A stretch of DNA of 64,000 bases from Crossaster papposus. Its lineage: Eukaryota; Echinodermata; Asteroidea; Velatida; Solasteridae. Positions 1 to 63,539 of the stretch are shown piece by piece. The notes below the pieces were generated by a model. The model searched no databases. It was not told where the DNA came from and was given only the letters and a program-made list of their open reading frames with translations. Location: positions 1-64,000 of the forward strand of contig JBAIAA010000893.1 in the NCBI GenBank assembly GCA_037893245.1, read 5' to 3'. The position numbers and the translations under genes are program-made. The first letter of the stretch is position 1; every line of letters starts with the position of its first letter.

Positions 1-77
1 ATATAGATTATCGTTCGTCTTTTTTGTTCAGTTTGTTACCATCTTTTTGTCTATAAACTTTCGTATTCCCTCGTGCC

Positions 78-1238: not shown

Positions 1239-1479
1239 AGAGAGGTTTCGCCTGCGAACGGATACGGTTAGCTTAACGGATACGTCATCAATTTTTGCGG
1301 ACTTATGACGTCACAGTTACTCACTACCCGCTAACCATAGACATGGAGTTTTTTCCTCCATGTCTATGCGCTAACCGTGTACAAGGCACGGATATCTCGC
1401 TCGCTACACGTAAGTATAAAACGCGTACGGATAGCTAAACGTACGCGTACGCCTATCCGTTCGTATGCGAAACCTCTCT
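1239..1479. mobile_element. 241-bp MITE present only in unit 1
   Basis: The element begins AGAGAGGTTTCGC and ends GCGAAACCTCTCT. Imperfect similarity of the two ends continues for about 26 bp (…GAACGGATA). Direct ATT copies flank it, and the empty site is visible in units 2, 3 and 4 (CAATTCATTATTAACC). This is a clean before-and-after view of an insertion. The 3-bp target duplication would suit a PIF/Harbinger-like source, but the termini alone do not prove the family. Confidence 0.9.
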
Positions 1480-4362: not shown

Positions 4363-4737
4363 ATACTCCAACCTGATGGTTAGTCTAGCCCCATAATTCC
4401 TTCTTAAAAATATCCTCCAACCTGATAGTTAGTCTAGCCCCGTAATTTCTTTATAAAAAAATAAAAAATAAAAAATAATAAAAAATAAAATAATTTATCT
4501 AACTTGATTGTTAATCTAGCCCCGTACTTCCTTCTAAAAATATCCTCCGATTTGATGGTTAATCTAGACCCATAATTCCTTCTTAAAAATATCCTCTAAC
4601 TTGATGGAACGTTGAAGTACTTTCGTTTTATAATTATACCTTTATTTTCTACTCAAAATGTATATTACAAATGGCCCTGATAATAACTCGTCACATGTCC
4701 AGTTATAAAATTAAAATAAATTAATGATTCCTGACAA

Positions 4738-39000: not shown

Positions 39001-42000
39001 TTGGGAACCGGCTGAATTAGTATCAAAATGCAAATTGAAGTCTTGCTTCCGAGACGTCTCAAATGGCGCCGTGCTTCTGCCGTACTAATTTGATTAAGTT
39101 GTGCCGAAAATCAATTGGCCGGGCCGAATTGGTTTCAAACGTTATTTTTGTGCCGTGTCGAATACAAAAATCCTTAAAAAAAATTCAAATTGAACTGTAT
39201 TAGACACGATACAATCGCGACGTTTGAAACGGGTCTTACTTAGTCTTACTTAGACCTGGAGCCAATTTCGTGGAGCTGCTGAGCACGAACAAAATTGCTT
39301 AGCATGAAAACATTTCCTTGGCAAACAAAACAGGGTTACTAACATTTTCAGGTGATATATTGTTTGTGCTCTATGGTGACAGGTACTCAGCTGGTTTTGC
39401 TTAGCATGATTTAAGCGCATGGAGTTTTGTCTTGTCCCTCCTAAAAGATTGAACAGTTGTTTTTTCATTTGATGCATCAATTTGAATATAACAAATGAAC
39501 CTGTGACATTTACCTTGCCATCCATGTCCATCATACTCAGTTTGTTGTGCAGTATGGTGTTTCAAGGATACTCAAATGTCTGCTGAAGTACTTACTATTC
39601 AGGGGACAGTTGTGTAAGGTTTTATCAAAGTCGTGCACCAGTAAATTGCCATGATATACCGGTAGGCTAATATACATGGGTGCACTAGCCTAATCCAGGT
39701 CCCGTTGAAAACAGTGTAAAATCAACAATGTTCAGGACCAAGTTTCATGCACACCGACATCACTGGGGTTTCTCAAACAACAATCAGATTATTGTCTTGG
39801 TCTTTATCTTTCCATTTCTTTTTCAATTTTTAGTGGGTTAGCCAATTACATTTTTTAATATTCACACCAAAAGAAACTCGCCTCCCGAAAAGTGATACTT
39901 CCCGAGCTTGCAAGCAGCCATTTTACAAATGGCATCCTCCACGTTCTAGGGCAATTAGGACCCGTTTTTTAACCGTACTTTTGTCAAGTCTGCCCTCAGA
40001 TTGAAGCTCAAAAACCAGGGAGTTGATCCCATGCTATATTTACACAATCCCACCATTTTATTTTTACCAAACGGCCTCCTTTTATCAAAAGAAAATGTGG
40101 GGGCACATTTCATGCTAATGAAACCGCATAGAAATTCTCTCTTCAATTAGGTCGGTGCACCCACATGGTCATCTTAAATTTTGGTTGGGTTTTCCCCCCA
40201 CCCAGGCCAAAAATATTACCATATGGAACTGTAACATACATAAGTACCGTAGAAACGTGCAGAGTTGTATTAGAGTCTCTCCAAGTCCTTTCACAGGTCC
40301 AGTCATGCGGCACCGACTTTTAACTCTAACCCCTTCGGTATATCTTTGCTAGAGAGTATCCTGAATCTGCCAAATTCTACCAATTTTGTCAGCCACAAAA
40401 ATGATGGGGACTGCTCAATATGGAGGTATCCTGAATCCATCAAAAAACTGCAGTACATTGTACCTTTAGACTTACAATCCTCAATCCATTAAAATCTCAC
40501 AGTTTTCAATATGAAGGTATCCTAAATCTGCCGAAATTCTCCAAAACAGGGGTACGTGTGGGTTTTGATGGATTCAGGTACACAATGTAGGTTAGGGATA
40601 ATTTTCAAAGTTGTAGAACACTGGTTAACCAGTTCGCGCCGGGATTATTTTAACATCGCCGAGCCGACGGGCGGGATTATTTTTAACGAAACTCGATCCG
40701 AAGCGTGTTCAGGCCTATAGTGCTGGGTAGCACACCCACGCATTTCCGGCCTTGCGCGCTGCTGACATACATTTCCGAACTTGAACTTGGCGTATATATT
40801 CGTCATCCGTTTTGAATTTGGGGAAATTTTTGCGTTTATATTCGTCATCCGGCGCGAACTGGTTAAAGTATACGTTTGGTAATTGGAACCCACCGTTTGT
40901 TTCAATCCTATTTAGTTATAGATATGTATACCATAAAACTAAGCGATTTTGAGATATTGCCTAAAATCTGGAGTGGTTATGTCCACGCAGGAAGAATAAT
41001 CTGCATTGGAATACACAATCTGAGAAACGTCACTGCAGTAATGCTTATCAGATTCAAATTTTTGGGAATAAAAAGTGATATCTTTTTTCATAACCGCAGT
41101 ACTTCAAAGTGAACAGTTTCAAAAAATGCATTATACTATCCAAAGCTGCTGTACTTCTCATCAAGTATACATACGATCCTTTTAAATTGTTTTTTTTGAC
41201 CTAAAACTTTGTTTGTTTTTTTATTCTGCAGATTTTCCTACAATAGCTTGTAAAGTTTGTGGGGATCGGTCCTCCGGCGTTCACTACGGCATCATCTCCT
41301 GTGAAGGTTGTAAGGTAAGAAAGTGATTTGTTTTTTCTTCAATTGACGGTAAAGTTTATCTTTCTTTTTTAGCGTGTTTAGCAGAGTTGTAATAAGTTCA
41401 GTCAATGACTCGACTCAAATCACAATTCGAGCGATTCACAATACCTAGAAGCTGCCGTTGGAGGCGCAAATCCTGCTATACCCACAGTGCATCATGGGGA
41501 AAAGTCGGCATCAGTTTTTAAAACAGTATTCATTTTGCATGAACTCCTCAGTTTTTACGTCTTTTTGGACGCGCACGATTAAAGTTTTATTATTTTTCTG
41601 CAAATAACAATGTTTTAATTAACGCCGCTGCCGGATACATTTTCGTTTGTGTTAAACCTCGCATGAACAATGAAGAATAGAAATTTCACTACAGTATGAT
41701 ATATGGCTGTGTATACAAATTTGGGGTCCAGTGAGCTTTTAACACATTGTTCATCTTTAAGTGCCATTATTAATTATATAGAAAATTGTCAACTCTGAAA
41801 GTTTTCTTGCATAATATGCCCCAATGTCATATGATGTTCAAACTGTATTAGTTTGATCCTAATTGTGGTTAACATTTTTTCTGCGATACAAAATGTCTGC
41901 CTGTCCCATGGTAGTTTCAACCCCCAAAGTGTGACATGAGGACACCGACCCACTAATACATGTTTTCTTATAATAGACAAATAAATTGAACCAATTAAAA

Positions 42001-48000: not shown

Positions 48001-51000
48001 GTATGGGGTGAATCTACTTTAACCCTGATCTGATCTCTACTGTCTTTTATTAATTATAATTGGACCAAATCTGCCAAAATTACTGGGTCTCCCTGTTTTA
48101 TGTACATGTACAATGGAACCACTACTAAATTGGTGGTCGATGTTGACTTGGGGCCTTTTCGATTCGCTGGCTTCGTCACCGTTTTTGGCTTATAAGGCGA
48201 TTTTAGGCTTCCAACTGCAGAAACTTCAACAACATTTTGACGCCTGTTGTGCTTTACGAAGTACATCCAATCGGTTGATATGAACCTAAATGTTTCTATT
48301 GTCTCCCATTTCTAAAGAAGATCTTGTTAAGATCAAAATATTAGGCCCTCTTAACTTATTTGATTTGTATATTTCAGGTCATTCCAACCAGTAAGCAGTT
48401 TACAGCAGTTCAGTTTAATCTTATTCGGGTCTCCTATTTGTATTAGCTTGTCCGTGATTCCGAAGTCAGAGCCAAAGACAAAGCATAGGTTTCGAAAACA
48501 AAAACGTATAGTTTGTACACGTACATACGTACGTATACGGTACATGTACCGGTACATATACCATACACGTGTACATGTACATGTACATGATACGTGGTAC
48601 TGCATTGTGGGCAAAATCAATCCGATTTCCCCCAGCAGTTCTTTGGGCCTCCTGTCCCAAGTCCATCATAATCCGTCAACATCCGCCTCATTGGGCCCTG
48701 GAAATTGAGTTTTCAAGTTGGCAATTCAATGGATGACTCTACAGACACCTTTGGGGCGGATTCCTAAACAAAGTTTGAGTTCTGAAAAAAAAAAAATCCT
48801 GTGTCAAATAGTGGCCACATTTGACGGGTTTTTAATTTTGTTTACCATGTTCTTGGTAAAACCTTCAGTGCAGACACCCTTTAGTAAGCTTTATGCAAGA
48901 TAGCCAGGGGAATTGTGTAAGTCACTTGAGTAAATGATGAGACACCCTTGTCATTCAAGCCTGGCTCTCTAGAAAGTGAGCACTGTCAACATATTAAACT
49001 GTGGAGTCATAATATCTCCAGGCTATTGGTGATAAGCAGAGGTGACACAACAGTGCAAGAAATGCCAGGTGATAGGCACTTTGATGGGCATGGGAGTAAT
49101 GAGAAGCGATGAGTTGTTGACCTGTGTTGACCCACGGAGGAAACTTCCTCAATGGTTGAACTTGTTTTTCTAGCCTGTTCCTATAGCTTGCAACTTGTCC
49201 TTGTTGTAAAATGGACTTGCAATAATCGCTATAAATATGAACCCCCTTAAAGGTAGGATACACCATTAGTAACTGCTTGAATAATCATGAATGGGTATAT
49301 CTGGGGTGTTGTATTTTATAGTAAATATAGTTTAACTGACCTGTCTAAAGTTTTACAATCATGGATGCTGAGAAAAGCACGAAAAACGGCGTTTGTTTTT
49401 AACCGGCGTCAAGCAGTTATTCTTATGTCATCTTTGTTTTTTAAAGGATATCTAGCGCAATCATTTTGCTGGATGCCTAGAATAATTATTTACTTTAAAA
49501 TAAGTAAAATACATGTATTTCTTAATAATTCGGTAGTAAATATTTTTCTATATCTGCAAATGGTGTATACTACCTTGAACCAGTTCGCGCCGGGATTATT
49601 TTAACATCACCGAGCCAGGACGCAGGATTATTTTTTAACGAAACTCGATCTGAGGCGGGTTCAGGCCGATGGTATCGGGTAGCACACCCACGCATCTCCG
49701 TCCTTGCTCGTCACGCGTTTATGCGTCATCCGTTTTGAATCTTTGGGGAAAACTTTGCGTGTGTACATACATCCTCTACGGCGAACTGGTTAGCCCATTA
49801 ATTTTTTTAAATAAACAGCAAGAACAAATGGTGTACATGTATACATGTACCGTTAGTACTTTAAAGTTTTTTTTTAAAAGTGTCTACGAACACAAACCTT
49901 TAAACAAGCCAGCTTAACAATATTTGCTATACAATACTAACTCCTCCCCCCTCCCTCCCCCCCCCCCCCCCTTCCCTCAAAAAAAGTGTAAAAAAATTTA
50001 AAAATTAATGTTGAATCTTCTCTTTAACGACATGTTTTTTTGGTTTTTTTGTTTTTTTCTGCAGGGGTTTTTCCGTCGTTGCCTCAGAAGACAAAAAGAG
50101 TATGTATGCGTGCGAGGCGGGAAATGCGAAGTCAGTCGGAACCAGCGCAATCGGTGCCCGGCCTGCCGATATACGAAATGCGTGGAATTGGGCATGTCCA
50201 AAGATGGTGAGTTCATCGGGCATTCTTAAACTTTGCCCGGCTAAACCCCGCTGAATCCAACAAGATCCTCCAACAGAGTCCAACCAGTTGACACTTTTTT
50301 GTTGGCACCTGTTGGATTTTCAGCAAGTAGGGTAAGTCATTTGATAAATATTCCAGAGCACATTCAGAATCACTTTTTTCAAACAGTTTTGCTCTCCCCA
50401 CCGTCGTCAGGAAACTGATGAGGGATTCCAACTGTGAACCGGGGTTAAATTAATGTGACCGGCTCAACAAAAAAAAGGGTATTAGGTCGTGCTGTGCAAT
50501 ATCATGTAATGGACTACTCAACGTTGAGAGGATAAACATTTCATCAAAATGTGATTTACATTTTTTGCCATTTAATGACATCTTTAACACCAATATATTT
50601 TCAGGTTTCATTCAAAGAAATATTGATTTTGATGATTAAAGTGGAAAACACGCCCATCGTTCTGTTGTTCTACAACAAAGCCGGCTTTTTCAAAGCCTGT
50701 TTTCTCAGTTGTGTAATTTGAACTCCAAGGAAGTAATCAAAAGCAAACATGTCATATCTCCAGAACAGTAGTAGCTATGGAGCTATATTATACACCAAAT
50801 GGAAGCTTACGCTGTGGGCTTTCCAACCATGTACATGTATATAACATGTATATCACTATTTTGTGACATACATGTCATTTCGTTAAAGATAATTCCGCCC
50901 GTTGGCTCGGTGATGTTAAAATAATCCTGGTTAAGAGTGAAATCATTGGAAAGATAGGCATAGATAGTGAAATATGAATAATATATATGGTGTTTTTTTG

Positions 51001-54000
51001 GGTGGCAGCGGTACGGATAGGGAGAATACCTAACAAGCAAAAAGAGACGGAATTTGTCGACATCAAACCCTTCACGGTCGAGACATTGGAGGACCGCAAT
51101 GCGGACAAGTCCACGGCGTTGATAGAGGCGGACCCCGAGACCCAGCAGCTGATAGACTACGTGGTCAAGGCCCACTTGGAGACCTCCAAGAATTACGTAA
51201 GGTTCCCGCCGAGAATTATGCAAGGTTCCCGCCGAGAATTATGCAAGGTTCCCGCCGAGAATTATGCAAGGTTCCCGCCGAGAATTATGCAAGGTTCCCG
51301 CCGAGAATTATGCAAGGTTTCCGCCGAGAATTACGTAAGGTTTTCGCCCCGAGAATTATGTAGGGTTTTCGCCCCGAGAATTATGCAAGGGTTTTCGCCC
51401 CGAGAATTATGCAAGGGTTTTCGCCCCGAGAATTATGCAAGGGTTTTCGCCCCGAGAATTATGCAAGGGTTTTCGCCCCGAGAATTATGCAAGGGTTTTC
51501 GCCCCGAGAATTATGCAAGGGTTTTCGCCCCGAGAATTATGCAAGGGTTTTCGCCCCGAGAATTATGCAAGGGTTTTCGCCCCGAGAATTATGCAAGGGT
51601 TTTCGCCCCGAGAATTATGCAAGGGTTTTCGCCCCGAGAATTATGCAAGGGTTTTCGCCCCGAGAATTATGCAAGGGTTTTCGCCCCGAGAATTATGCAA
51701 GGGTTTTCGCCCCGAGAATTATGCAAGGGTTTTCGCCCCGAGAATTATGCAAGGGTTTTCGCCCCGAGAATTATGTAAGGTTTCCGCCGAGAATTACGTA
51801 AGGGTTTCAGACCCGAGAATTACGTAAGGGTTTCAGACCCGAGAATTACGTAAGGGTTTCCGTCCCGAGAATTACGTAAGGGTTTCCGTCCCGAGAATTA
51901 CGTAAGGGTTTTCGCCCCGAGAATTACGTAAGGGATTTCCCCCCGAGAATTACGTAAGGGATTTCCCCCCGAGAATTACGTAAGGGATTTCCGACCCGAG
52001 AATTACGTAAGGGATTCCGACCCGAGAATTACGTAAGGGATTCCGACCCGAGAATTACGTAAGGGATTCCGACCCGAGAATTACGTAAGGGATTCCGACC
52101 CGAGAATTACGTAAGGGATTCCGACCCGAGAATTACGTAAGGGATTCCGACCCGAGAATTACGTAAGGGATTCCGACCCGAGAATTACGTAAGGGATTCC
52201 GACCCGAGAATTACGTAAGGGATTCCGACCCGAGAATTACGTAAGGGATTCCGACCCGAGAATTACGTAAGGTTGAAGCGCGTTTTTTAAGAGGGATGTG
52301 CTCTATAAAGTGCCTTCGTTTTTTGGGGGGGTTTTTAAAAGTTTTTTTTAGATAGATTAATTCTTTGTTAACATTGAGTTTTCTCCGGTTCTTTACAGAA
52401 CCATACAAACTGATCTCAACTGGAAGATTGACTACATAGTGCTATCGCAAACTCCATTAGCTTATCGCCTATTCACCGCGAAAAATCTATCAACTCTCAA
52501 AAGAAATGTTGTCTCTTTTTTTAACTCTCGCTTTCCGCAGGCGGAGTTTGATGAGTTCTTGAAGGGCAACTTGAAGCTGCCGTGTCGAGTCCATGACTGC
52601 AAGGACCTGAAGTCAGACATGGATCTAAACAGTAAGGAGTCTAGGGGTGCGGGAGGGGGAGGGGGAGGGGGAGGGGGAGGCGGCGGCGGCAGGGGGAGGG
52701 GGGAGGGGGCACACAGCACACGCACACACTGACACAGGCCTTAAAGGTATATGTAAGATACACCATTGGTAATTGCTTGAATTATCATGAATGGGTGGAT
52801 TTGGGGGTTGTATTTTATAGTAAATATTGTTTAACTGACCTGTCTGAAGTTTTACAATCATGGATGCTGAGAAAAGCACGAAAAACAGCGTTTTTTTTCA
52901 ACCGGCGTCGAGCAGTTATTCTTGTGTTATTGTTGTTCTTGGTTTTGTCGCGATCGCCATCTGGCGATCGCAAATTTTCTGTTAGAAAATTATATTTTTC
53001 TGAATAATTACAGGATATCTAGCGCAATCATTTTGCTGGATGCCTAGAATCATTGTTTACTTTCAAATGAGTAAGACATTCTTGAATAATTGGTTAAAAA
53101 AAATCAATCCAATTATAAAAGCATAAAATTTGACACAATCAAAGTTTGTCGTGAGATTGATATTTGGCTATACATGTAGGAAAATCGCATCCTGTAGATG
53201 TTATAACAAGCAATTTTCAAACATTTTCATAAATTTTCAAAATGGCTGCTATTGCTTGTTAATCCATGGCCACCTACTTTTTTTTTCAAAGGTTAAATCT
53301 GCAATTGCCCTATATTGCTAAAATATCTCTCCTGACATATTCTGAGTGTGTGCCAAATTCCATGCTTTTATCAAGTGAACAATTCTATCAAATTGTGCAG
53401 TGATCTGTGTTAAAAGGCAGTTTGACTGAACACATCTGTTCCTGTTTGGGTAAATATTTTAAGTGGTCGGGAAAATATTTCTGATGTTCTAACCTTTAGT
53501 ATAAACAGGGTGATCCTCTTTTTAAAAAAAAAAACACCACTTTTGTGTTGAGGGCCATTTTCCTCTTAGGAAAATGTCTGTTGGCCTAAGCTTTAGATAC
53601 AACATCATTCTATCTCTCCATCAAATTCTAACCAAAATAAAAAATAACTTTAGTTCAGTTCAGTTCAGTTTATTTCCACAGTACCAAAAACATAGAAAAA
53701 CATTTAGAATAAAAAAAACCTGTAGATAAAGCAAAACATAAGTACATTGCTTAAAAGATGGATGATACTGCGAAGGAGCCCATAAAGAAGCAAAGCTTGT
53801 AAGCAATGGGCTCCTGGAAGTATGCATGTACATTGAGCCGAGTAGATGTGGGTTTGTTGACTAGGAAACAAGTGTACAAGAAATCGCATACTCGTAATTG
53901 ATCCCGAGAATATGGGCTCAATGTACATGCTGCTAACAATAGACATAACACAAAAGTGACAAATAACAACGGACATAAACAGTATACTACAACAGGTCAG

Positions 54001-57000
54001 CAATACAAGTACAGTGTACATGATAAACAAATTAAAATCATCAAATTAATAATCTCTTCCAACAAAGTAGACTTATGTTTAAATGCGGGAAGATTTTTCG
54101 AAGTTTTAAGTTGGTCATTAAACGAATTCCAAAGCTTGGGTCCCTCAAATTTGACTGGTTTTTTTTGCGCAAGAGAAGTACGAGCATATGACACGTGAAA
54201 CTTGAATTTGACAACTCGAAAAACCCAATTTGTAACATTCTTCCTTTATCGTGTCAATGTTTGACATTCCTGTGTGGTCAATATTTGGTATGTCCCAAAC
54301 GATGTGTACATGTACACCCTGAAAATTTGGTTTGTAACTCTGTTTTTGCGAAGGAAGAGTTTTCATGCTGATGAGCATTTGTGCGTTTGTGCTGAGCAGC
54401 TTCGTGGAATATGTGACCTTGCACCACGAAATGAGTGGAAAGTCGCGAAATTAAAGTTGACATAACATTTCTAGAAAGAAAAATTTCTAAGCTTTCAAAT
54501 GATGTATTGTGTGTTGCTGTAGCTTATTCCTAGCCGCCGCTATACTCTTTTGAAATAGCTGAAGTCATGCTCCCTTGTTTTGAGAAAACGGGGTTTAAAG
54601 TTCGTGAACCGTGCTAACTATACTACCAATCGGTGCAATTCAGCCACAAAAAAACACACTTTAGATTTTTAATTGAGCTATAAAATTTTGCGATATTATA
54701 AAGGTTTTTTTTTTTTTTGTATGTAAAAACGTTAACAAATCTAAAACGACCTCCCACTTAAAAAAAAATGACATTTCGGCCAATAACTCGTTTTGGCAAT
54801 GTGCAACTTTCCGCTCATTTCGTGGTGCCAGGTCACGTATGCCCCAGGTCTGCATAGCAAAACTGTTTATAAAATGAACATGGATTACAGTGCTGACTGC
54901 CTTTTAGTTTGTATTGGATCTGGAAATCTCATCTGCAAGGTTTTTCTCGATCTACATTGTACATGTACTGGTATATGAAACTGTTAATTAAGGTGCGTAA
55001 CCTTCATGCTCTAGTGATCCTTGTGAACAGTCTCATTGATAGAGACCTTTGGGAGGCAGGTTTCATACGAAACCCGGACAAAGTTGACAATTTAAGTTTT
55101 TTCGATTTCTTTTTTTTTCAAATTCTTTAGGTTCTCGGTTTTAAAATGATTTATCATTTGTGACCCGCTCTGCAAGTTTTACAGTTGGAATTAAGCTTTC
55201 ATTTGACATATGGCACAACTCTGTAGTGTAATGCATTGGTCTTTTAAAATTGTTTAAAATTAGCTTTTTCTCAGTTATATTAAAAATGTCTTTGAACAGA
55301 AATGAAGATTTATAATTTTAGTGCTCCATTAGATGCTATGGTTAGAGGATGACAAAAACCTTGATTAAATCTACTTTAGGGATCAAAACAACCTTTTCAA
55401 ACAATCAGTTCTGAAAAAAATAGGTGTCGGAGAAACCAAAATTCCTTAAAACCAAAAAATAAAATTGCTGAAAGAAAAATCACCTCTGAGACAATGAGCA
55501 GTCCTTTACGTGAAAATGTATTATGCGACATCGGACTCATTTTTGCAGAGCGGGTCTCATTTACATATGTACCCCCACCATATCTCTCCTGGAGGAAGGA
55601 TTTAGTGATAAAACACCCTGACAACCAAATTATGAGAAAAACAGCTTTAAAGTTCAGAAAAAAAACACTTTTATTTCTATACACAATTGTTTCTCAAAAT
55701 CGACCAAAAAACACAACACTTCTGGGTGATGGATTATTTTCAAATTTTTGAGATTGAAGATTAATAGCTAGTGATTCAGAAAAACTCAAAATGGTAAAAT
55801 CCACCCCGAAATGACTTCACGAGTACATTGTAATTTAAAACACATTGTGTGACTTTGTCCGGGTTTTGTTGGAACAGGTCACATCTTGAAAGTTTGGTTT
55901 GCTTGTTTTTTCGCTGGTTGGGGGAGGAGTTGTATGGTGCATTATTTATCGATACTTTTATTATTGTTTTTGAGGTACCGGTAGGATACACCATTTGCAG
56001 ATATTTTTACTACCGAATTATTAAGAAATACCTTACTTATTTGAAAGTAAATAATGACTGTAGGCATACAGCAAATTGATTGCGCTAGATATCCTGTAAT
56101 TGTTCCAAAAATTGAATTTTATAAAAAACAAACATTTGTGATTGCCCATGGGAAAACAAAAACAAAATAAGAACAACTGCTCGACACCGGTTAAAACCGA
56201 ACGCTTTTTTTTTCTGGCTTTTCTCAGCATCCATGATTGTAAAAATTTGAACAGGTCAGTTAAACGATATTTACTATAAAATACAACCTTCTAAATTCAC
56301 CCATTCATGATAATTCAGGCAATTACCAATGATGAATCTTACCTTTTTAAAGTGAACTTCATCTTTGATATGCACATAATTTTTTTGTGTTGGAACGCAC
56401 GACAGTTAAGAAAAAAATAAGATTACAACAAAAACATTAATAGACCCCTCCTACTTTGAGAGGAATAAAAGGTGAAAACCAGAAACAAGAACAAATAAAA
56501 AATTAAAAATTGTACAAATCTGTACAAACAAGTTTCTTGTTAACAGGATTTGTGTAAAAAATTTAAAAAAATTGAAAATCAAAAAAACAATTTGTTTTTC
56601 TGATGAAAAAAACCAATTGGATTGTAGCTATAGGTGAATGACATGTAGGTTAAAAAAAAAAAAATCGGAAGTGGGAATTTTGTTTTTGGTCTGCACTTTT
56701 TTTATTTTTTTTATTTTTTTATTTGCAAACACAATGCATAATGCAACCTACAGTGTAATACCAGTAGGATTACAAAATCGGATTGCAGGGTTTAATGCTC
56801 CTCAAACTGAGTATATTGACACACTTTAAATATTCATTGCTTGTCCACACTACAAAAATTGGATGCAAAGCAGAACTTGTTTTGAAGATGCATGTATTTC
56901 CAACCTCATTCCCCAGGAGTTTTAATCGTATCGCAATCCTCTTGGGAAAAAAAAATTGCATTAAAAAAACATCTTTAGTCTACATTATAATAGGGACAAA

Positions 57001-59345
57001 TTTGAAAGTATTGGCAGCCAAATCCTTTTAAAGGGATCGTATACGTTTGGTAATTGGAACCCACTGTTTGTTTCAATCCTATATAGTTATAGATATATAC
57101 CATAAAACTAACCTGTAAAAATTTCATTTCAAAAGGTGGTAGCGATTTTGAGATATTGCCGAAAATCTGGAGCGGTTATGTCCACGCAGGAAGAATAATC
57201 TGCATTGGAATACATAATTTGAGAAACGTCACTGCAGTAAAGCTTCTCAGATTCAAATTTTTGGGGATAAAAAGTGATATCTTTTTCCATAACCACAGTA
57301 CTTCGAAGTGAAAAGTTTCTAAAAATGCATTATACTATCCAAAGCTGCTGTACTTCTTACCAAGTAAGTTTTTATTGCCATTAATTTTTGAAGTAATTAC
57401 CAAACGTATTCGATCCCTTTAAATTTTCCATTAACAAATAAAGCATTGCGGCGTGAATTGCATCGTTTTGTGGCGTGATTCAGTGCCTGCAATTTTGCCC
57501 ACAATAAAAAATATGGTGGATGGTACCCCGAGTTATCCTGATTGACTCATGGCATGCATGAGGGTCAGGAGCCCTGCTGATATCCCTCAACCTGATGCGC
57601 ACGGGACAAAATCAATTATTTATCAAGTTTTTATTAAATACCCTCAAACAAAAACACTTTAGATCTGAAAGTAATATCTATGACGAATTCAAGGACTTTA
57701 TTTTTAAGACAAATGTGACAAATCCGGTAGAAATTGTGAGAAAATGGCTTTCTTTGAACCCCTGTACAACCCCTGGCGATTTCGCTTCCTGCCTTCAGGC
57801 CTATTGTATATGCACATGCATGCATGAATTAGTGTAATACAGTCAAACCTTGATATAGCGGCCATCGACGGTGCCGGTTTTCGTGGCCACTATACGCAAG
57901 TGGCCACTATAGCAAGACGTACACATGTACACACACACATACATGTACATGTATGAAGCCCAGGAACCAAACAGGGGAGATTTCAAAGTCAACAGAGGGC
58001 GCACTTAAGAAACTGGTCCATGCGCATGTAATAAAGTCAACACGATCGTTTAGAGACGAATCGTATGGTGCCGATGTTGTTTTGCATATTTCAAAAAGTC
58101 TCGCCATCTCAGTGGCCCAGTTTCTCTCACATTTGACATTTTCAAAAGAGTTATCTCGTTTTAAGGCGCTTCACGAAGTGACTTATCGTCTTGGAGTGCT
58201 TTATGAAGTGACTTATCGAGGACATTGGGTCGTATGAATTAAAAACTATTAAATGCTATGAAGTACAAGCAAAAAGTAAAAGCATTTACTTCGAAGTAAA
58301 AGCATTAAGGAAAAGCAAATGCTTCAATTCGTATGAATAAAATTAAGTTTTACTGTTTAGCATTTACTGGCTGAAATAGCAGTAAATGCTTTTTACTTGC
58401 AATTGATTTCACAGCCGAATGGTTTATAACAATAGTCTCTATTGTGTGTACGATGCACACCCACGCATAGACGCTCGTACACTGACAGGGGTGTTTGAAT
58501 GAAATCGGAACCTCGAGTTACTGCTTCGCAGTCACGATGCCGTTTTCTGTCTCGCCACTAAAATATTGCAAGAAATTATCGGCCATCTACGTCTCATTTC
58601 CTTGCCCAAAATCAGTACAACTGCTTGTATTTTAATCCTAGACAATCCATCTTCCATGTTCATAACTTTTGCTGCCTAACCACATAAAAGCTCCTATTTT
58701 TTCATATTAGTATTTGCTTCTCTTTTTTTCAAGGTAGCCCCGACCCAACCTTGAAAAATTACGAGTAAATACTGCAAATCTGAAGCATTTACTCATTTTT
58801 ATTCATACCAAATGAAGCAAATACTAATATTCTAGCAAATGCTGGAAATTAAAAAGTAAATACTTTTAGTCTTTAGCAAATACTTTCCAGTAAAACCTTT
58901 TGCTTCATTTTTATTCATACAGATTCCAGTAAATGCTTGAAAATTGGTAGTAAAAGCAAATGCTAGTTTTTATGTATACGGCCCATTATGTCGCTTTAGT
59001 GGGATTTGTGCAATCCCGAACTAACTTGAAGTACTTGGCATATTGTGACTGCTCACTTTGTATTCTTTGTATTCGTGGAGTGTCGTGGTCGGGCGGTTAA
59101 GAACTCGGTTTTCTGTTCCGCAGAGCGTGGGTTCGAGTCCCGGTGTCGACACGTGTGTCCTTAAGCAAGGCAATTAAACCACTATTGCTTCATCCTTCGG
59201 ATGGGACGTAAAGCTGTAGGTCCCGTGCGTTGTGTAATGCACGTAAAAGAACCCAGTAACACTCTTCGCTAAGAGAAGGGGTTTGCCCCGGTGTTCCTGG
59301 CAGCGCCTTGGAATAGGCAACTAGATAGATGGCGCTTTACAAATG

Positions 59346-59411
<66 letters not shown>

Positions 59412-62400
59412 ATTCTCTATAATTTTACGGAATCATTGTGTGAGATTTGTGAAGTTTTCTGATCAACCAAATCTTGCTTTCTTGGCCGATTCTTTAATTC
59501 CTTGACGACGGAAATGGCTATTGCCGCAGCCCGCTAATCCAGCCAGAATGCTCAGTCCATTGTGCAGTGCAGCTACTGGGACATTGGTAATACAGTCAAA
59601 CCTTGATATAGCGGCCATCGACGGTGCCGGTTTTTGTGGCCACTATACGCAAGTGGCCACTATAGCAAAACGTACACATGTACACACACACAGTCGTGAA
59701 CCACATAACGACCGAGGATCGATATTGTGTTTTCCTTTCTTCCTTTACTTAACCCAATCCCCATTGCTTTGCGCTTGCACCGTCGATCGAGGACAGAATT
59801 CGGACAAGCAAACCGTCGATCGAGGATCCTTTGTTCCCTTTGTTCTCTTTTGTGTTTCGATCCTCGATCGTAATGCAAGACAACAACACCCATACATGTA
59901 CATGTATGAAGTCCAGGAACCAAACAACAGGGGAGATTTCAAAGTCAACAGAGGGCGCACTTCATTTCTGCGGCCGGAGTACACAGGTTTCACGGCAATG
60001 TAATTGCACACATTTTATTTCCTGTGGGCTAATATGGGTTGGCCACTGGCCGCGTTACGCAGTGGCCGCATTAGCAGAAATGGTTATGGTATGTTTATGC
60101 AAGAATCAAACTGGGACCAAGCAAAGGTGGCCAGTTAAGCCAGGTGGCCGCTGTATCAAGGTGGCCGCAATGGCAGGTTTGACTGTACCAGCGTCAAGGG
60201 ATTTAACCAATTGTAACCCACTCTGCAAAAATGAGTCTGATGTCGGAAAATACATTTTTACGTAAAGGGCCGTTTATTGTCTCGGAGGTGATTTTTTTTT
60301 TTTTTTTTTCAACAAATAATATTTTTGTTTTAAGGCATTTTGGTTTCTCTGACACCTATATTTTCAGATCTGATCGATTGAAAAGATTGTTTTGATCCCT
60401 AAATTAAATTTAATACAGGTTTTGTCATTCTCTTACCATAGCATCTAATGAAGCACTACAATTGTAAATCTTCATTTCTTTTCAAAGACATTTTTGTATA
60501 TAACTGAGAACAAGCAAATTTCCCAAAATTGTAAAAGACCGATGCATTACACTACAGAGTTGTGCCATATATCAAATGGAAGTTTATTTCCTGTTTTTTC
60601 TGACCAACTGTAAAATTGAAAACAAATCAACATTTTTAACACATCAGACTTATTTTTGCAGAGTGGGTCACAATTGTGTACTACTTGTAAAAACAGCTAG
60701 ATTAACTTTGTTTTGTATTCTGTCATTTTTCAATTGATATATATTTTGGGGGTTTATTTTTGTCCAGGTATGAATGGCCTCACCATGTGGTGTTCTGTTG
60801 TGACACAGATGCTGTCATTATTCATTAAGAGAATTGTCACCTTCTGCAAGTATATTCCAGGTAACGAGACATACAATATCCTGGCTTTCAATTGTTTGAA
60901 CTTTTTCTATTTTTTTTTTTAAAGATTTTTGGTACCTTTTTTTTTTAGGTACATGTAGTATGCACCATTTGCTTCTGCTGTGATTTTCAAAAATGGATGG
61001 GTTCTGGGACCGATTTCACGAAACTCGTCTTAACTTACGACTCATCTTAGGACTTAGGACGAGTCCTAGATCAAAGATCGATCTTGGCTAAGACGTGTCC
61101 TAGGATCGATTTCACTAAACCCATCTTACCAAAGACGCATCGCAACTACCAATTTAATGGCTGTTTCGTGTTTGTTTTTACCGCTAGAGGAAACAGTTGT
61201 TGAAAAGAAACCGCAAACCAACTCCCAGCGTGCGCGTGCGAGAACACAAACTTTTTCTAATCTGTTCAGTACCATCACGTACGGTAGTTCTGCATGTTCT
61301 ATATACGGCAGAGTCGACTAGTTGGCGTATAAATAATTAGTTTTTAAAACTATACACACATAGCAAAATATTAATCAAATCTGTTTCTTCTTCGAAACTA
61401 AAACTCTAGGCCGACATTTGTCTTATAACGAGAAGATAATGCAATGGTTTTCAAACAATATACAGACAATATTCAGACAATATACAGACAATATTCAGAC
61501 AATATACAGATTAACGTACGTAAAAATGAGAGAAGACGACCCTCGGACTGATTCTAAGTTAAGACGAGTTCAGCTCGTTGCTATGGAAGATAGGACGTGT
61601 TGAACGTGTCTTAACTTTAGTGAAATCGATCCTAGGCCGAGTCGCGAGTTGGGACGAGTTACTCTTCCTAAGACGCGTCTTAGCGTTCTTTGAAATCGGC
61701 CCCTGGATTCATATTTTGTGGTAAATATTGTGCCGCTGACCAGTTTTTGTTTGTTTTGTGTTTATGAGAGATGGAAAAACTGAGAAAATGGTGCTGTTCA
61801 TGCAGTCTGGTTCCTTAGACGAATTCAATAAATTGGGAACAGTGCTTGAAAATAGTCAGGTTTTTACAACGATTGCCGGCCGGCAATTGTTTAATCGTAG
61901 ACAGCATCAAGGAACAGTTTCTGTCATCAACAGTTTAGTTTTTGGGTGCCCGGTTCCGATATATTACCTCTTTCTTTTTCTTACGTTCACCTTGAGCAGG
62001 TTTCGCCGTCCTAGACCAACAGGACCAGATGGTCCTGATCAAAGGCGGCTGCTTCGAGATCCTGACGGTGCAAGACAGCATCGAGCTGGTTCTCTACGAT
62101 GCCTTCATGCTCAACAAGGAGCTGCTGATCACCCGGCCCAACATGCTGAAATTCATGCCCCAGGAGCTAGTAGAGTCGCTCTACGATTTTGCCCAGCGGC
62201 TGCACCGCCTGCGGCTGACGCTGACCGAGCTGGCGTTGCTGTCGGCTATCGTTCTGTACGCGGACGGTACGTGTCTACCTCGGGTTTTAGAGCTATAAAC
62301 ATCATAATAACAATGTAAAGGAATCAAATAAAAATGTAACCCGCTCTATCGAAATTAGGAATAAGTCTCAAAATGACTTTTTGAGATATGCACATGGTGA

Positions 62401-63539
62401 GAAAGGGAATTTCATAAGCTTTCTAATGATACCCATCACAAGTGTGTATCTGTTTAGGTTAACGAGTTATGGTCTGATGAAGATGACAGGTGGATATATT
62501 ATTGGTCGAATCCACATTCCGAGAAAAGCAGCTTTGAAATAAACAAAATTGACAAAAATCATACGGACAGCGCACACAAATCCTTTTCATTTTTATTGAT
62601 CGTTTTTAAATACAAGACATTAATGACAATAATTTTTGATAACTACACTTCCTAAAAATACAATGTTCAGAAAATTGACTTGGTCACGATTTTCACCCAT
62701 GCGTTCAATTTAACGGCCGATTGCGTAAAACGGCCCCAGCGACTTATTCCTGATTACGATGGAGCAGGTCACAAATGTGTAAAGCACTCATCTCTCTACC
62801 AGTGTGGCCCAGGTTTCATTCCCGGCTTGGACCAAAACTGGAGCATCAAAACCTTTTGTACTACTGGGTTTAGATGATGGAGCCTTTCCTTTCATGGTTC
62901 TTTGGGTTGTTTTTTATTTAATTTTTTACAGACCGGGAGAATTTGATAGATCGAAAGGCCATCGCCGCCATGCAAGCGAAGCTCCTGATGGCCCTCAAGG
63001 TGGAGGTGCAACGCAACCACCGCTCAGACCCCCATATGTTCGCCAAGATTCTCCTGCGTCTACCCGAACTCCGCACGGTGGACAACCTCCACACCCAGTT
63101 CATCGTGAAGCTACAGCTGGGCGTCGGCAGCGGGGACCTGCCCATTCCAGCCCTGTACAAGGAGGTGTATGACCTGGGCATAGCCGGCTTGCAGACCAAA
63201 GAGAACCCCGCGGACGACGGTGGCAGCGGCGGCAACGACGATGGTGACAACAGTGGCGGTGACGACAGTGGCAGAAGTGCCGACGGTGATTGGAAGTCGG
63301 CCGGCAATCCACCCATCAAGAAGGAGGCGGATCAAAACTGTTCGTCTCTGGCGGACGGGGTTGACGAGTTGAATCCGCAGGTGCAGGGGACAGAGCTTGT
63401 GAAAGAGGCTGCTACGGAGACGAAACTAGACAGGCATCAAAAGGACCTTGAGCAGATTGCTCTCATTGGCCCCGACGGCGTGGCTAGGCTCGGGCGCAAA
63501 AGGTCACAGGTCACCCAGGTGGATGCTGGGAGATGCTGA
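29856..63539 (+). CDS. Nuclear receptor of the NR1 type, eight coding exons, 539 residues
   Basis: This is a ligand- or constitutively regulated transcription factor acting in the nucleus. Coding exons are 29856-30003, 41232-41314, 50065-50206, 51009-51196, 52541-52631, 60768-60860, 62000-62266 and 62932-63539. All junctions are GT-AG and all phases fit, giving 1620 nt. Residues 56-121 form the two zinc fingers (C56/59/73/76 and C92/98/108/111) with P-box EGCKG. Residues 125-135 are a GRIP-like extension ([11 protein letters not shown]). The ligand domain runs from helix 1 (about 173-187) through FCKYIPGF-x6-DQ to AF-2 ALYKEVYDL (411-419). Charge-clamp candidates K245, K263 and E415 are present. 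An acidic Gly/Asp/Ser-rich tail (420-539) carries a SUMO-type IKKE. The first finger, the MW start of helix 3 and the LYKE AF-2 recall ROR/HR3. Other parts recall Rev-erb/E75 or PPAR, so I give no ortholog name. Confidence 0.93.
30247..30496. mobile_element. MITE family Z, copy 1 (250 bp)
   Basis: The ends GGGGCCAATTTCATAGAGCT and the reverse complement of AGCTCTATGAAATTGGCCCC match over about 30 bp, continuing into TAAGCACAA. Other members in the window are at 46914-47073 and, degenerate, at 39250-39425 and 54318-54410. Confidence 0.88.
30666..30955. mobile_element. MITE family Y, copy 1 (TTAA-flanked, palindromic ends)
   Basis: TTAA, CCAGTTCGCGCCGG, body, CCGGCGCGAACTGG, TTAA. The TTAA duplication and CC-starting inverted ends are characteristic of piggyBac-type transposition. 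Unlike the other copies, about 75 bp of the left end, including the AAAACTTTGCGTTT block, is repeated in inverted form at the right end. Confidence 0.85.
31084..31497. mobile_element. MITE of the TGTGACC superfamily (414 bp)
   Basis: The ends TGTGACCTGCTCCCACAAAA and, in reverse complement, TGTGACCCGTTCCTACAAAA are followed by similar sequence with (R)ACATAA. It is flanked by TA-rich bases. A 146-residue frame across it (30905-31345) is not a gene. Confidence 0.82.
32105..32271. mobile_element. TGTGACC-superfamily MITE, short (167 bp)
   Basis: TGTGACCCGGCACATCAAAA with ATCAGGAATAAGTC is matched in reverse complement by GACTTATTCCTGATTTTGAT then GTGCCAGGTCTCA. The ends resemble those of the 439-bp element at 62335-62773, which also has AGGAATAAGTC. 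Confidence 0.85.
32931..33320. mobile_element. MITE family X, copy 2
   Basis: It begins AAAGGTAATATACATCATTG and ends TGCAAATGGTGTATACTACC, with a body of about 390 bp shared with the copies at 33549, 49249, 52741 and 55979. Its right terminus runs directly into a family Y element. Confidence 0.88.
33319..33548. mobile_element. MITE family Y, copy 2, between two X elements
   Basis: CCAGTTCGCGCCGG to CCGGCGCGAACTGG. The right end is followed by TTAAAGGTAGTATACACC, the terminus of an X element, so this copy sits on the TTAA of that terminus. Confidence 0.88.
33549..33918. mobile_element. MITE family X, copy 3
   Basis: TTAAAGGTAGTATACACCAT to ATACCTTTAA, inverted with respect to copy 2. The two X copies flank Y copy 2 like bookends. 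The 164-residue minus-strand frame at 33460-33954 is only a translation of these repeats. Confidence 0.88.
33940..34085. mobile_element. MITE family X, deleted copy 4
   Basis: GTATACACCATTTGCAGA, then the family body with a middle deletion, then CAAGTCAGTTAA. The far end is lost. Confidence 0.7.
34174..34197. repeat. Poly-G run
   Basis: This run of about 22-24 G is in intron 1. Confidence 0.9.
34375..34578. mobile_element. MITE family Y, copy 3
   Basis: ATAA-CCAGTTCGCGCCGG to CCGGCGCGAACTGG-TTAA, 204 bp, with the body in the orientation opposite to copy 2. The left flank differs from TTAA by one base. Confidence 0.85.
34910..34945. other. Short perfect-stem hairpin
   Basis: TGCGCTCTC pairs with GAGAGCGCA across a loop containing AGG-CTGGT-CCT. 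It is a strong 36-nt hairpin with no assigned role. Confidence 0.45.
35136..38318. mobile_element. 3.18-kb non-autonomous DNA transposon with palindromic tandem repeats
   Basis: GGGTCACTCCATGAAGTT starts the element and its reverse complement ends it (24-bp ends with one mismatch, continuing SGGGCA). Direct ACAT copies flank it at 35132-35135 and 38319-38322. Inside are repeats of about 171-180 bp near 35693, 35873 and 36044 carrying GATGCTAC…GTAGCATC palindromes, a run of some 27 C (36784-36810) and CpG-rich ACAACTCG repeats near 36945-37000. No transposase frame is present. The 4-bp duplication would suit several superfamilies and I do not name one. Confidence 0.85.
35693..36065. repeat. 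Tandem ~171-180-bp repeats with 32-nt palindrome
   Basis: GATGCTACATGGACACCGTG, then TCCYGTAGCATCG, starts each unit and forms a near-perfect hairpin. The remainder (GTAAAGATAGTGCAATGATT and so on) is also shared. A weaker copy of the palindrome start lies at about 35330. Confidence 0.88.
38448..38630. mobile_element. MITE family Y, truncated copy
   Basis: The body with GGTGTGCTTCCCGGTACCAT and the right end GCGCGAACTGG-TTAA are present. The left terminus is missing. Confidence 0.8.
39131..39230. repeat. 100-bp imperfect palindrome
   Basis: GGTTTCAAACG at the left and CGTTTGAAAC at the right, with further pairing of GTGTCGAATACA and TGTATTAGACAC. It is probably a degenerate foldback element. 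Confidence 0.6.
39250..39425. mobile_element. MITE family Z, degenerate copy
   Basis: GGAGCCAATTTCGTGGAGCT followed by GCTTAGCATGAAAA resembles the family Z left end. The right end is recognisable only as CTCAGCTGGTTTTGCTTAGCA. Confidence 0.6.
40629..40862. mobile_element. MITE family Y, copy 4, next to family W
   Basis: TTAA-CCAGTTCGCGCCGG to CCGGCGCGAACTGG-TTAA, 234 bp. The right TTAA belongs to the terminus of a family W element that follows directly. Confidence 0.88.
40863..41186. mobile_element. MITE family W, copy 1
   Basis: TTAAAGTATACGTTTGGTAA to ATACGATCCTTTTAAA. The body is shared with 57028-57424, for example GGAGTGGTTATGTCCACGCA. It ends about 45 bp before the first zinc-finger exon, close to where a branch point would be expected. 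Confidence 0.82.
41232..41314 (+). CDS. Receptor exon: first zinc finger
   Basis: The 83-nt exon follows TTATTCTGCAG and ends AAG before GTAAGA. It encodes [16 protein letters not shown] then SCEGCK, with spacing C-x2-C-x13-C-x2-C. The intron between the fingers, after EGCK, is at the position used in many NR1 genes. The [15 protein letters not shown] stretch is close to ROR/HR3, whose version has SSGIHYGVITCEGCK. Confidence 0.95.
43327..43794. mobile_element. Foldback element with a second palindrome nested in it
   Basis: The outer arms ATCGCGA…AAAATGGCGGAACAAG-TCTGCGCAGGC and their inverted match end at about 43794. Inside, 43376-43650 is another long imperfect palindrome (CCACTGACCTC outside, AAGTGCAACATGGCG and TGAGCCAATGAAATGTCCAG within). 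The 102-residue frames here are repeat translations. Confidence 0.75.
44057..44155. repeat. Poly-C runs and adjoining poly-A
   Basis: Two C-runs of about 30 each are separated by GCCGCCGCCGGAACCCACCC and followed by about 17 A. The glycine-rich minus-strand frame over it is an artefact. Confidence 0.9.
45903..46400. mobile_element. 498-bp MITE with ATGCTGC ends
   Basis: ATGCTGC, then ACACTGTGGCGA at the left, is matched in reverse complement at the right (TCGCCACAGTGTGAGAGCAGCAT). The body repeats GCTTACCAACG and CCAATGCTTA. (GACTC)n runs flank it on both sides (45880-45897, 46410-46432). Confidence 0.8.
46606..46714. repeat. Direct repeat, copy 1 (with 48317-48426)
   Basis: GAAGATCTTGTTAAGATC through TATTTCAGGTCATTCC and GCAGTTT recurs 1.71 kb downstream at high identity. 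It is not flanked by inverted ends. A local duplication is the simplest reading. Confidence 0.75.
46914..47073. mobile_element. MITE family Z, copy 2 (160 bp)
   Basis: GGGGCCAATTTCATAGAGCT at the left and TAGCAGGTCTATGAAATTGG then CCCC at the right. Confidence 0.86.
48317..48426. repeat. Direct repeat, copy 2 (with 46606-46714)
   Basis: It has the same sequence as copy 1 with a few substitutions. Confidence 0.75.
49249..49576. mobile_element. MITE family X, copy 5
   Basis: AAAGGTAGGATACACCATTA to AAATGGTGTATACTACCTT. It is followed after three bases by a family Y element. Confidence 0.86.
49580..49789. mobile_element. MITE family Y, copy 5, next to family X
   Basis: CCAGTTCGCGCCGG to CGGCGAACTGG. 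The flanks (TTGA, TTAG) are decayed TTAA. It abuts X copy 5. Confidence 0.84.
50065..50206 (+). CDS. Receptor exon: second zinc finger
   Basis: The exon follows TTTTTTTCTGCAG, ends with one base of the next codon before GTGAGT at 50207, and encodes [15 protein letters not shown] up to CVELGMSKD. The four cysteines are spaced C-x5-C-x9-C-x2-C. The D-box VRGGK is unlike the D-boxes I know for ROR (PRQKN), PPAR or Rev-erb. GMSKDAVRIGR across the next junction is the usual NR1 extension. Confidence 0.95.
50477..50871 (-). mobile_element. MITE family T, copy 2
   Basis: It is inverted relative to the copy at 26285-26683. It begins GGGTATTAGGTCGTGCTGTG and has lost the last bases of the other terminus after CACTATTTTGTGACAT. 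Confidence 0.85.
50878..50930. mobile_element. Family Y fragment
   Basis: CGTTAAAGATAATTCCGCCC to AAAATAATCCTGG-TTAA corresponds to one end of family Y. Confidence 0.65.
51009..51196 (+). CDS. Receptor exon: DNA-binding extension, hinge and helix 1
   Basis: The acceptor is TTTTTTGGGTGGCAG. The exon is 188 nt and encodes [16 protein letters not shown], a hinge, and [16 protein letters not shown], which resembles helix 1 of ROR/E75-type receptors. The donor GTAAGG at 51197 is chosen because it gives phase 0, which the next exon requires, and ends the similarity. The same frame runs on without a stop to 51775 because the adjoining minisatellite is open, so the annotated end could be variable. 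Confidence 0.88.
51191..52272. repeat. Minisatellite built from the exon's own splice donor, 43 copies
   Basis: The array starts with the last six exon bases (AATTAC) and the donor GTAAGG. Every unit repeats AATTAY-GYARGG followed by a spacer ending in GAG. Units 1-6 are 23 bp, the next two are 25 bp, and fifteen central units (51379-51768) are 26 bp. After one 23-bp unit at 51769 come units of 26-27 bp to a last core at 52261. By my count 21 cores read ACGTAAGG, two read ATGTARGG and 20 read ATGCAAGG. The GC type fills units 2-6 and the central block. Confidence 0.95.
51197..52540 (+). other. Intron 4 of the receptor
   Basis: Of its 1344 bp, the first 1076 or so are the donor-derived minisatellite. 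The remainder is T-rich and ends CGCTTTCCGCAG. Confidence 0.85.
52541..52631 (+). CDS. Receptor exon: start of ligand domain, between helix 1 and helix 3
   Basis: The exon follows CGCTTTCCGCAG and encodes [15 protein letters not shown] then [15 protein letters not shown], plus one base, before GTAAGG at 52632. The region between helices 1 and 3 varies between receptors, so there is little sequence to compare. It is supported mainly by phase 0 entry, phase 1 exit and the clean fit with both neighbours. Confidence 0.82.
52741..53092. mobile_element. MITE family X, copy 6
   Basis: TTAAAGGTATATGTAAGATA starts it and the right terminus is lost after TTTACTTTCAAATGAGTAA. Confidence 0.82.
53645..54240 (-). 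mobile_element. LINE 3' fragment (CR1/L2/Jockey-like end)
   Basis: The minus-strand frame at 53997-54194 contains [19 protein letters not shown] then [12 protein letters not shown]. This is the pattern found at the end of reverse-transcriptase proteins of such LINEs (hh-GPKhWNSLP-x-L-x12-FK-x-Lh). On that strand the element ends in ATAAACTGAACTGAACTGAA, a short AACTG tandem tail. The 5' part is missing, as is usual for truncated insertions. Confidence 0.72.
54318..54410. mobile_element. MITE family Z, partial copy
   Basis: AAAATTTGGTTTGTAACTCT through TGCTGAGCAGCTTCGTGGAA matches the right half of family Z. Confidence 0.6.
54412..54837. mobile_element. TGTGACC-superfamily MITE (426 bp)
   Basis: TGTGACCTTGCACCACGAAA with TGAGTGGAAAGT is matched in reverse complement at the right (ACTTTCCGCTCATTTCGTGG then TGCCAGGTCACG). 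Confidence 0.85.
55159..55559. mobile_element. TGTGACC-superfamily MITE (401 bp)
   Basis: TGTGACCCGCTCTGCAAG to GCAGAGCGGGTCTCA. The element at 60212-60672 is an inverted relative sharing ACAACTCTGTAGTGTAATGC. Confidence 0.83.
55979..56350. mobile_element. MITE family X, copy 7
   Basis: GGTAGGATACACCATTTGCA to ATGATGAATCTTACCTTTTT, 372 bp. Confidence 0.85.
57028..57424. mobile_element. MITE family W, copy 2 (about 397 bp)
   Basis: TTAAAGGGATCGTATACGTT at the left and AAACGTATTCGATCCCTTTA at the right, both TIRs continuing with ACCAAACGT. This is the complete copy used to define the family. Confidence 0.88.
57840..58008. mobile_element. Tc1/mariner-type MITE, left part only
   Basis: TA-CAGTCAAACCTTGATATAG and the following 170 bp match 59593 onward, but without the right end. 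It lacks the extra hairpin segment seen in the longer copy. Confidence 0.78.
58227..58984. mobile_element. 758-bp MITE rich in AGTAAATGCTT repeats
   Basis: GGGTCGTATGAATTAAAAAC at the left pairs with the right end GTTTTTATGTATACGGCCC. Flanking ATT copies are at 58224-58226 and 58985-58987. The subterminal parts are made of scattered AAGTAAAAGCATTTACT-type motifs in both orientations. Confidence 0.83.
59075..59410 (+). mobile_element. tRNA-derived SINE with (ATC)n tail
   Basis: The head has a tRNA-like A box (TGGTCGGGCGG at about 59087) and a B box (GGTTCGAGTCC, 59130-59140), the two internal RNA polymerase III promoter parts. The body includes CCTTAAGCAAGGCAATTAAA and CGCCTTGGAATAGGCAAC. The element ends GATGGCGCTTTACAAATGC followed by about 20 ATC units (59347-59410). 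Confidence 0.85.
59593..60185. mobile_element. Tc1/mariner-type MITE with nested hairpin
   Basis: The ends CAGTCAAACCT and AGGTTTGACTG, each next to TA (59591-59592, 60186-60187), are typical of Tc1/mariner. A segment absent from the shorter copy at 57840 lies inside and has CGACCGAGGATCGA (59709-59722) inverted at 59857-59870. The 160- and 144-residue frames here are not genes. Confidence 0.87.
60212..60672. mobile_element. TGTGACC-superfamily MITE (461 bp)
   Basis: TGTAACCCACTCTGCAAAAA to TTTTGCAGAGTGGGTCACA. It ends some 95 bp before the helix-3 exon. Confidence 0.85.
60768..60860 (+). CDS. Receptor exon: helix 3
   Basis: The exon follows TTTTTGTCCAG and encodes [16 protein letters not shown] followed by [16 protein letters not shown] serine codon is completed at its start and a glycine codon is split at its end (GTAACG at 60861). 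K245 in FCK-YIPG matches the helix-3 lysine of the coactivator charge clamp (K301 of human PPAR-gamma by position). MW at the beginning matches ROR helix 3. Confidence 0.92.
60861..61999 (+). other. Intron 6 of the receptor
   Basis: Borders are GTAACG and TTGAGCAG. Most of it is the nested MITE pair listed next. Confidence 0.85.
61006..61703. mobile_element. MITE with a same-family MITE inside it
   Basis: The outer ends are GGGACCGATTTCACGAAACT and …TTTGAAATCGGCCCC. The inner ends CCTAGGATCGATTTCACTAA and its inverse lie at 61099 and 61636. The inner and outer termini resemble each other. A 24-bp-type repeat (ACAGACAATATTC) occupies 61455-61510. Confidence 0.78.
62000..62266 (+). CDS. Receptor exon: helices 4 to 8
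   Basis: The 267-nt exon follows TTGAGCAG. It encodes [17 protein letters not shown], the ligand-domain signature, through [20 protein letters not shown] to VLYAD before GTACGT at 62267. K263 is the second charge-clamp lysine. The exon is much more GC-rich than the introns. A 186-residue frame overlapping it in another frame (61758-62318) is a shadow. Confidence 0.95.
62267..62931 (+). other. Intron 7 of the receptor
   Basis: Borders are GTACGT and TTTTTTACAG. Two thirds of it is the next element. Confidence 0.88.
62335..62773. mobile_element. TGTGACC-superfamily MITE (439 bp)
   Basis: TGTAACCCGCTCTATCGAAA with TTAGGAATAAGTC pairs with the right end GACTTATTCCTGATTACGAT then GGAGCAGGTCACA. 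Confidence 0.85.
62932..63539 (+). CDS. Receptor last coding exon: helices 9 to 12 and C-terminal tail
   Basis: The exon follows TTTTTTACAG. It encodes [31 protein letters not shown] (helices 10/11) and AF-2 ALYKEVYDL, whose pattern matches LYKELF of ROR and LLQEIY of PPAR. The receptor therefore looks able to bind coactivators. The tail of about 120 residues contains an acidic low-complexity stretch ([20 protein letters not shown]), IKKE (a SUMO-site pattern) and GRKRS near the end. The stop is TGA 63537-63539. Such a long F domain is unusual for NR1 receptors. Confidence 0.94.

Follow-up and report, generated by a model that had tools for sequence, protein, structure and literature searches.

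A probable mirage-type minisatellite at a predicted exon-intron boundary of a nuclear-receptor gene

We analysed a tandem array in an apparently intact nuclear-receptor gene on contig JBAIAA010000893.1 (positions 1 to 64,000 of the forward strand; this 64,000-nucleotide stretch is referred to as the window). The array starts at the 3' edge of the predicted exon 51009–51196 and repeats this edge together with the adjoining 5' splice site (donor). Minisatellite-like duplications of exon-intron boundaries, called mirages, have been described in the amphioxus gene Adh3 and the globin genes BflGb6 and BflGb9 (PMC3087553). The array is probably a minisatellite of this type, with its first donor still in use. 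For the coordinates of all features see Table 1.

A preliminary description of this DNA had noted that the exon end AATTAC/GTAAGG (the slash marks the junction) recurs in every following unit, and our count bears this out. From the exon edge onward, 43 cores of the form AATTA[CT]G occupy positions 51191–52261 with a period of 23–27 bp, and 21 of them retain the full AC-GTAAGG. The junction reads TAC/GTAAGG in 21 cores, TAT/GCAAGG in 20 and TAT/GTAAGG and TAT/GTAGGG in one core each. The nine bases from core position 4 are TACGTAAGG in 21 units (1, 7 and 25–43), TATGCAAGG in 20 units (2–6 and 9–23), TATGTAAGG in unit 24 and TATGTAGGG in unit 8. A unit consists of 6–8 exon bases, the donor and intron bases, the first one being the edge of the predicted exon itself. 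Two structural features of mirages are present: the unit spans the predicted exon-intron boundary, and the splice signal is repeated in many, not all, units (GT in 23 of the 43 cores, GC in 20). The 42 complete units are 23 bp (7 units), 25 bp (2), 26 bp (32) or 27 bp (1) long; the partial unit 43 (12–14 bp) passes into unique sequence. Tandem Repeats Finder placed the array at 51209–52272 (41.7 copies, period 26, 96% matches, score 1307).

The motif TTAYGYAA, which spans the junction, was found 74 times on both strands of the window, the palindrome TTACGTAA being scored twice, compared to a mean of 15.6 and a maximum of 28 in 100 shuffles. Nine sites lie beyond the array. Pairs of units compared with the window by BLAST gave, outside the array, only matches of 10–24 bases with E values of 0.24 or worse. 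A two-unit pattern had no match in either genome_contigs or viral_contigs; these collections are not built of animal genomes, may leave out the genome of the window itself and are poor tests for an animal sequence. Within the limits of these comparisons, the idea of a dispersed element was rejected.

The complete units can be sorted into 13 types, which follow one another as A BBBB C D E F(15) G HH II J KK L M(10). Neighbouring units are identical in 29 of 41 cases (mean 7.6, maximum 16 in 10,000 shuffles), which argues for growth by local duplication. Two blocks, of 15 and 10 units, are homogenised, and unit 1 is singular. Core positions 1–12 vary only at positions 6, 8 and 10 among the 13 types. 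The unit end CCGAG is invariant in all of them, and the middle stretch varies in both length and letters.

The exon 51009–51196, taken in the preliminary description for a receptor exon, fits this role by its anatomy. Seven exons, sought from the first zinc finger onward, carry AG/GT at every internal edge and join in one frame to 490 residues ending in a stop; the exon before the array ends in phase 0 and fits both neighbours. The C4 zinc-finger DNA-binding domain (DBD) contains the motif CEGCKGFFRR and matches zf-C4 with an E value of 4.4e-28; its best match among solved structures is ROR-gamma (1.1e-29). The ligand-binding domain (LBD) lies nearest to Rev-erb beta (3.5e-26) and ROR-beta (9.8e-24) among solved structures. 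Judged by these best sequence matches and not by a tree, the receptor is nearest to ROR and Rev-erb among solved structures. An NCBIfam scan for classification yielded a chance match only. The exon with LBD helix 3 was chosen from splice scans, as the sole candidate in a strict scan of phases and splice sites and as one of nine in a looser scan.

According to the preliminary description the exon edge and its donor had been copied 42 times. The array indeed adjoins the exon exactly, the exon end reading ACCTCCAAGAATTAC/GTAAGG at 51196/51197, and no other copy is present in the window. Only eight exon bases recur in the units (AGAATTAC, the last of them being either C or T). In alignments the end of the exon falls at the beginning of the ligand-binding domains of ROR-beta and VDR, and its terminal Tyr faces a Tyr in both VDR alignments shown. 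The E value of the VDR and ROR-beta alignments, about 1e-6, applies to the whole 126-residue stretch. We therefore favour the exon edge with its donor as the native seed of the array, a plausible origin with moderate support. The reverse order, in which an array was inserted first and the exon captured its donor from it, was considered as well and is disfavoured by the Tyr match to VDR and by the lack of further copies in the window.

The first donor had been called a strong match to U1. In our calculation the match is modest, with a duplex energy of -5.1 kcal/mol and five bases paired, compared to -14.0 kcal/mol for the consensus. The corresponding energies, computed for the gene's donors except that of the fifth exon, are -9.5 and -9.2 kcal/mol for the zinc-finger exons and -7.0 kcal/mol for the sixth exon; the exon that follows the array has -5.0 kcal/mol. 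Within the array all 21 TAC/GTAAGG copies have -5.1 kcal/mol, the other two GT copies -4.5 and -4.8 kcal/mol and the GC copies -4.1 or -3.5 kcal/mol. The earlier suggestion of U1 binding at any point along 1 kb holds only in part, as 20 of the 43 copies carry GC and the intact site pairs over five bases only.

Competition between donors and exons of variable length had also been suggested, and here the reading frame sets limits. The frame is open from the exon through units 1–23 and is ended by the TAA of unit 24. Only two of the 23 GT donors keep it open into the next exon: that of unit 1 and that of unit 7, which would add 46 codons. The GT donors of units 8 and 24 shift the frame, and the 19 GT donors of units 25–43 all lie downstream of the in-frame TAA (51776–51778). 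Six GC units (4, 11, 14, 17, 20 and 23) would also stay open.

We predicted the accessibility of all 43 donors in three folding settings. The donor of unit 1 ranked first of 43 in two of them. Its values were 0.002–0.064 over the three settings, compared to medians of 0.0003–0.0009 for the GT decoys, and it exceeded the median GT decoy 73-fold and 78-fold in two settings. Controls were run in two settings, those other than the widest. With the spacers shuffled, unit 1 still outscored the median decoy in 25 of 25 draws in one setting and 19 of 25 in the other, with a much smaller gap (medians for unit 1 and decoys of 0.0233 vs 0.0035 and 0.0104 vs 0.0015). The spacers, and not the palindrome, therefore explain much of the gap. 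Masking of the decoys by the palindrome itself was rejected: when the palindrome was broken, unit 1 continued to exceed the median of the decoys in all 25 draws of either setting. Overall, predicted accessibility lends weak support to the use of unit 1.

In RNA of the GC type, folding between adjacent units is somewhat more stable than in shuffled sequences (z = -1.97 for 51431–51534 and z = -2.68 for 51170–51305). A stretch from the GTAAGG block (52079–52182) folds no better than its shuffles (z = -0.29).

Based on these results we propose the following course of events. An eight-base exon edge and about 15 adjoining intron bases would have been duplicated, probably by repair or slippage, and local tandem duplication would then have led to the 42 complete units. 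The mature mRNA is most likely still spliced from position 51197, the array lying in the intron and being removed with it. Unit 1 may be favoured as it is transcribed first and lies at the edge of an exon of normal size. Little harm is to be expected from the decoys: GC replaces GT at 20 of the 43 junctions, unit 7 is the only GT decoy that keeps the frame, and the 19 distal GT donors follow the stop. With splicing from units 27–43 the stop would lie 74–491 nt upstream of the junction, and by the usual distance rule such transcripts should be degraded by nonsense-mediated decay. Use of the first donor is the likeliest outcome, and the array probably leaves normal splicing intact. As in known mirages, the copy number would be expected to differ between individuals.

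Some of the same data could be read as a set of regulated alternative donors, unit 7 extending the beginning of the LBD by 46 residues and the distal GT donors tuning receptor dosage by poison splicing. The intact TAC/GTAAGG of unit 7 at an open, in-frame offset of 138 bp, the position of all 19 distal GT donors past an in-frame stop and the U1 energy common to the 21 TAC/GTAAGG copies would suit such a function. However, chance alone should yield an in-frame GT decoy, with about one third of offsets fitting, the GT decoys have low predicted accessibility, and mirages examined elsewhere are reported to splice regularly (PMC3087553). We regard regulated donor choice as unlikely.

The open frame from 50978 to 51778 would also permit an isoform with a retained intron, in which a repetitive tail, read through 23 units up to the stop at 51776–51778, replaces the LBD behind the DBD. 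A tandem unit without a stop in any of the three frames, however, yields an open frame for free, and a variable copy number would alter the tail, which makes such an isoform highly improbable. An assembly artefact in the copy number comes to mind in view of the runs of 15 and 10 identical units, which are hard to count, and of the long tandem repeats of 4.4–4.8 kb in the same window. Against this, the window contains no N, and an ordered series of 13 unit types that change by degrees would be unlike a simple assembly loop; we consider the chance of an artefact to be extremely small.

A further possibility is a homotypic cluster of D-box elements, i.e. putative binding sites of PAR-bZIP factors and E4BP4, which would serve a Rev-erb/ROR-related gene as an enhancer within the intron or would titrate these factors. 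The likeness to a splice site would then tell how the array began, and the factor sites why it was kept. The D-box was first defined from sites of the Per, Rev-erb alpha/beta and Ror alpha/beta genes, and 42 of the 43 cores are octamers listed for it, namely TTATGCAA (20 cores), TTATGTAA (1) or TTACGTAA (21), which rank first, second and last of 18 in the mouse DBP/E4BP4 chromatin immunoprecipitation sequencing data (PMC6687812). The nearness of the receptor to ROR and Rev-erb among solved structures and the restriction of core variation to three sites among 13 unit types are also consistent with this possibility. On the other hand, TTAC/GTAA follows from the joining of exon edge and donor, and both frequent changes are simple transitions. 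CCGAG is just as invariant as the octamer, which therefore does not stand out by its conservation, and homogenisation confounds conservation as evidence. The core of unit 8, TTATGTAG, is off the list, and the motif was noticed only after the sequence had been seen. The list stems from mouse liver, the sites here are putative, and the available text describes no such array for the D-box element of DBP/TEF/HLF and E4BP4 (PMC6687812). A D-box cluster is thus distinctly improbable. In its boldest form, the splice-site minisatellite would have become an enhancer array with 42 copies of the D-box: the TTAC/GTAA palindrome arising from exon edge and donor would be a PAR-bZIP/E4BP4 site, and the change to TTAT/GCAA, which removes the GT of the donor and gives the top-ranked mouse D-box, would at once silence decoy donors and strengthen clock-factor binding. 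We judge this version very unlikely.

Several observations weigh against a mirage-type minisatellite that is spliced from unit 1. The 21 TAC/GTAAGG copies are equal in U1 energy, so that the U1 match alone does not select unit 1, and in the widest folding setting the accessibility of unit 1 ranks only 20th of 43. Three ROR-beta alignments place Thr opposite the terminal Tyr of the exon and have gaps at the next two residues, and the helix 1–3 part, taken by itself, hits only an unrelated hydrolase (E 0.74) and none of the receptors with solved structures. These two points make the argument for the seed only moderate. The boundaries of the BflGb6 array are diverged and excluded from homogenisation (PMC3087553), unlike the 3' end of the present array with its ten identical units followed by a partial one. 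Finally, the cited papers describe mirages in cephalochordates, and the host may not be one.

Table 1. Positions of the array, its parts and the exons of the receptor gene in the window.
Feature	Position	Strand	Basis
Array of 42 complete tandem units (23–27 bp) and a partial unit 43; the first unit consists of the exon edge with its own donor	51191..52274	+	
Units 2–6, 23 bp, TAT/GCAAGG, GC replacing GT	51214..51328	+	
Unit 7, TAC/GTAAGG intact, offset 138 bp	51329..51353	+	frame table
Units 9–23: 15 identical 26-bp units, TAT/GCAAGG	51379..51768	+	
Unit 24, 23 bp, TAT/GTAAGG; contains TAA 51776–51778	51769..51791	+	
Units 25–43, all TAC/GTAAGG, including 10 identical units (33–42)	51792..52274	+	
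5' splice site of unit 1, GTAAGG; likely used donor	51197..51202	+	in-frame join to exon 52541–52631
Exon, first zinc finger of DBD	41232..41314	+	zf-C4 on joined exons
Exon, second zinc finger of DBD	50065..50206	+	zf-C4 on joined exons
Exon, 188 nt, covering the last part of the DBD extension, the hinge and the first part of the LBD	51009..51196	+	acceptor ggcag/CGG, donor TAC/GTAAGG
Next exon, phase 0 in, donor ACA/GTAAGG	52541..52631	+	
Exon with LBD helix 3	60768..60860	+	splice scans; within Rev-erb beta match
Exon, middle part of LBD	62000..62266	+	Hormone_recep E 9e-07
Last coding exon: end of LBD and C-terminal tail, stop 63537–63539	62932..63539	+	Hormone_recep E 0.0034, below curated cut-off

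Further repeats were observed in the window. A GGGAGG repeat (52651–52709) starts about 20 bases past position 52632, where the donor of the exon after the array lies; two successive introns of the gene thus begin with tandem repeats. A repeat of about 300 bp, probably a transposable element, occurs at 40868–41167 and 57039–57366 (about 94% alike); it ends about 65 bases ahead of the first zinc-finger exon. A dispersed family of about 350 bp is present in both orientations with 81–93% identity (32935–33281, 33554–33906, 49249–49574, 52753–53100 and 55980–56346). Positions 1–19800 consist of tandem units of 4.4–4.8 kb, marked by a sequence at 438, 5175, 10017, 14859 and 19235, with nested 231-bp arrays of 4.8–6.8 copies. 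Rfam and tRNA scans of the window were empty.

If the transcript is spliced from unit 1, the array represents a natural test of spliceosome choice, with one donor selected from 21 identical ones spread over less than 1.1 kb. Should the host lie outside the cephalochordates, mirages would extend beyond the group in which the cited papers describe them. If the D-box interpretation were true, a splice-site repeat would have been co-opted as a transcriptional array.

The preliminary description knew of no nuclear-receptor gene with such an arrangement. Our limited search of open-access text likewise found no nuclear-receptor case of a splice-site minisatellite, but the arrangement itself is known from the amphioxus mirages. 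For earthworm metallothionein, intronic minisatellites are described, and the available part of that account mentions no splice-site repeat in them (PMC12783039). In human segmental duplications some internal tandem repeats lie at exon-intron boundaries and may cause new introns, sometimes via cryptic splice sites; these concern recent human paralogues and have on average four units of 30 bp (PMC2812944). In lancelet PGBD5, tandem repeats fall on splice sites (5' or 3'), as the present array does on a 5' one, and TnC is cited in the same context; the PGBD5 units, however, measure 60 and 108 bp and are present in 2–7 copies (PMC3902484). The closest likeness is to the amphioxus mirages. The units of the Adh3 mirage (Canestro et al. 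2002, as cited in PMC3087553) range from 10 to 72 bp, which covers the 23–27 bp observed here, and the Adh3 data together with reverse-transcription PCR of the globin genes suggest regular splicing, with unstable lengths reported as well (PMC3087553). Differences are the gene class, the number of units (6 and 3 in two BflGb6 haplotypes vs 42 complete ones here) and the 3' edge, which is diverged in BflGb6 and not in the present array. By analogy, the arrangement is of a kind already described in amphioxus, and we regard the array as mirage-like.
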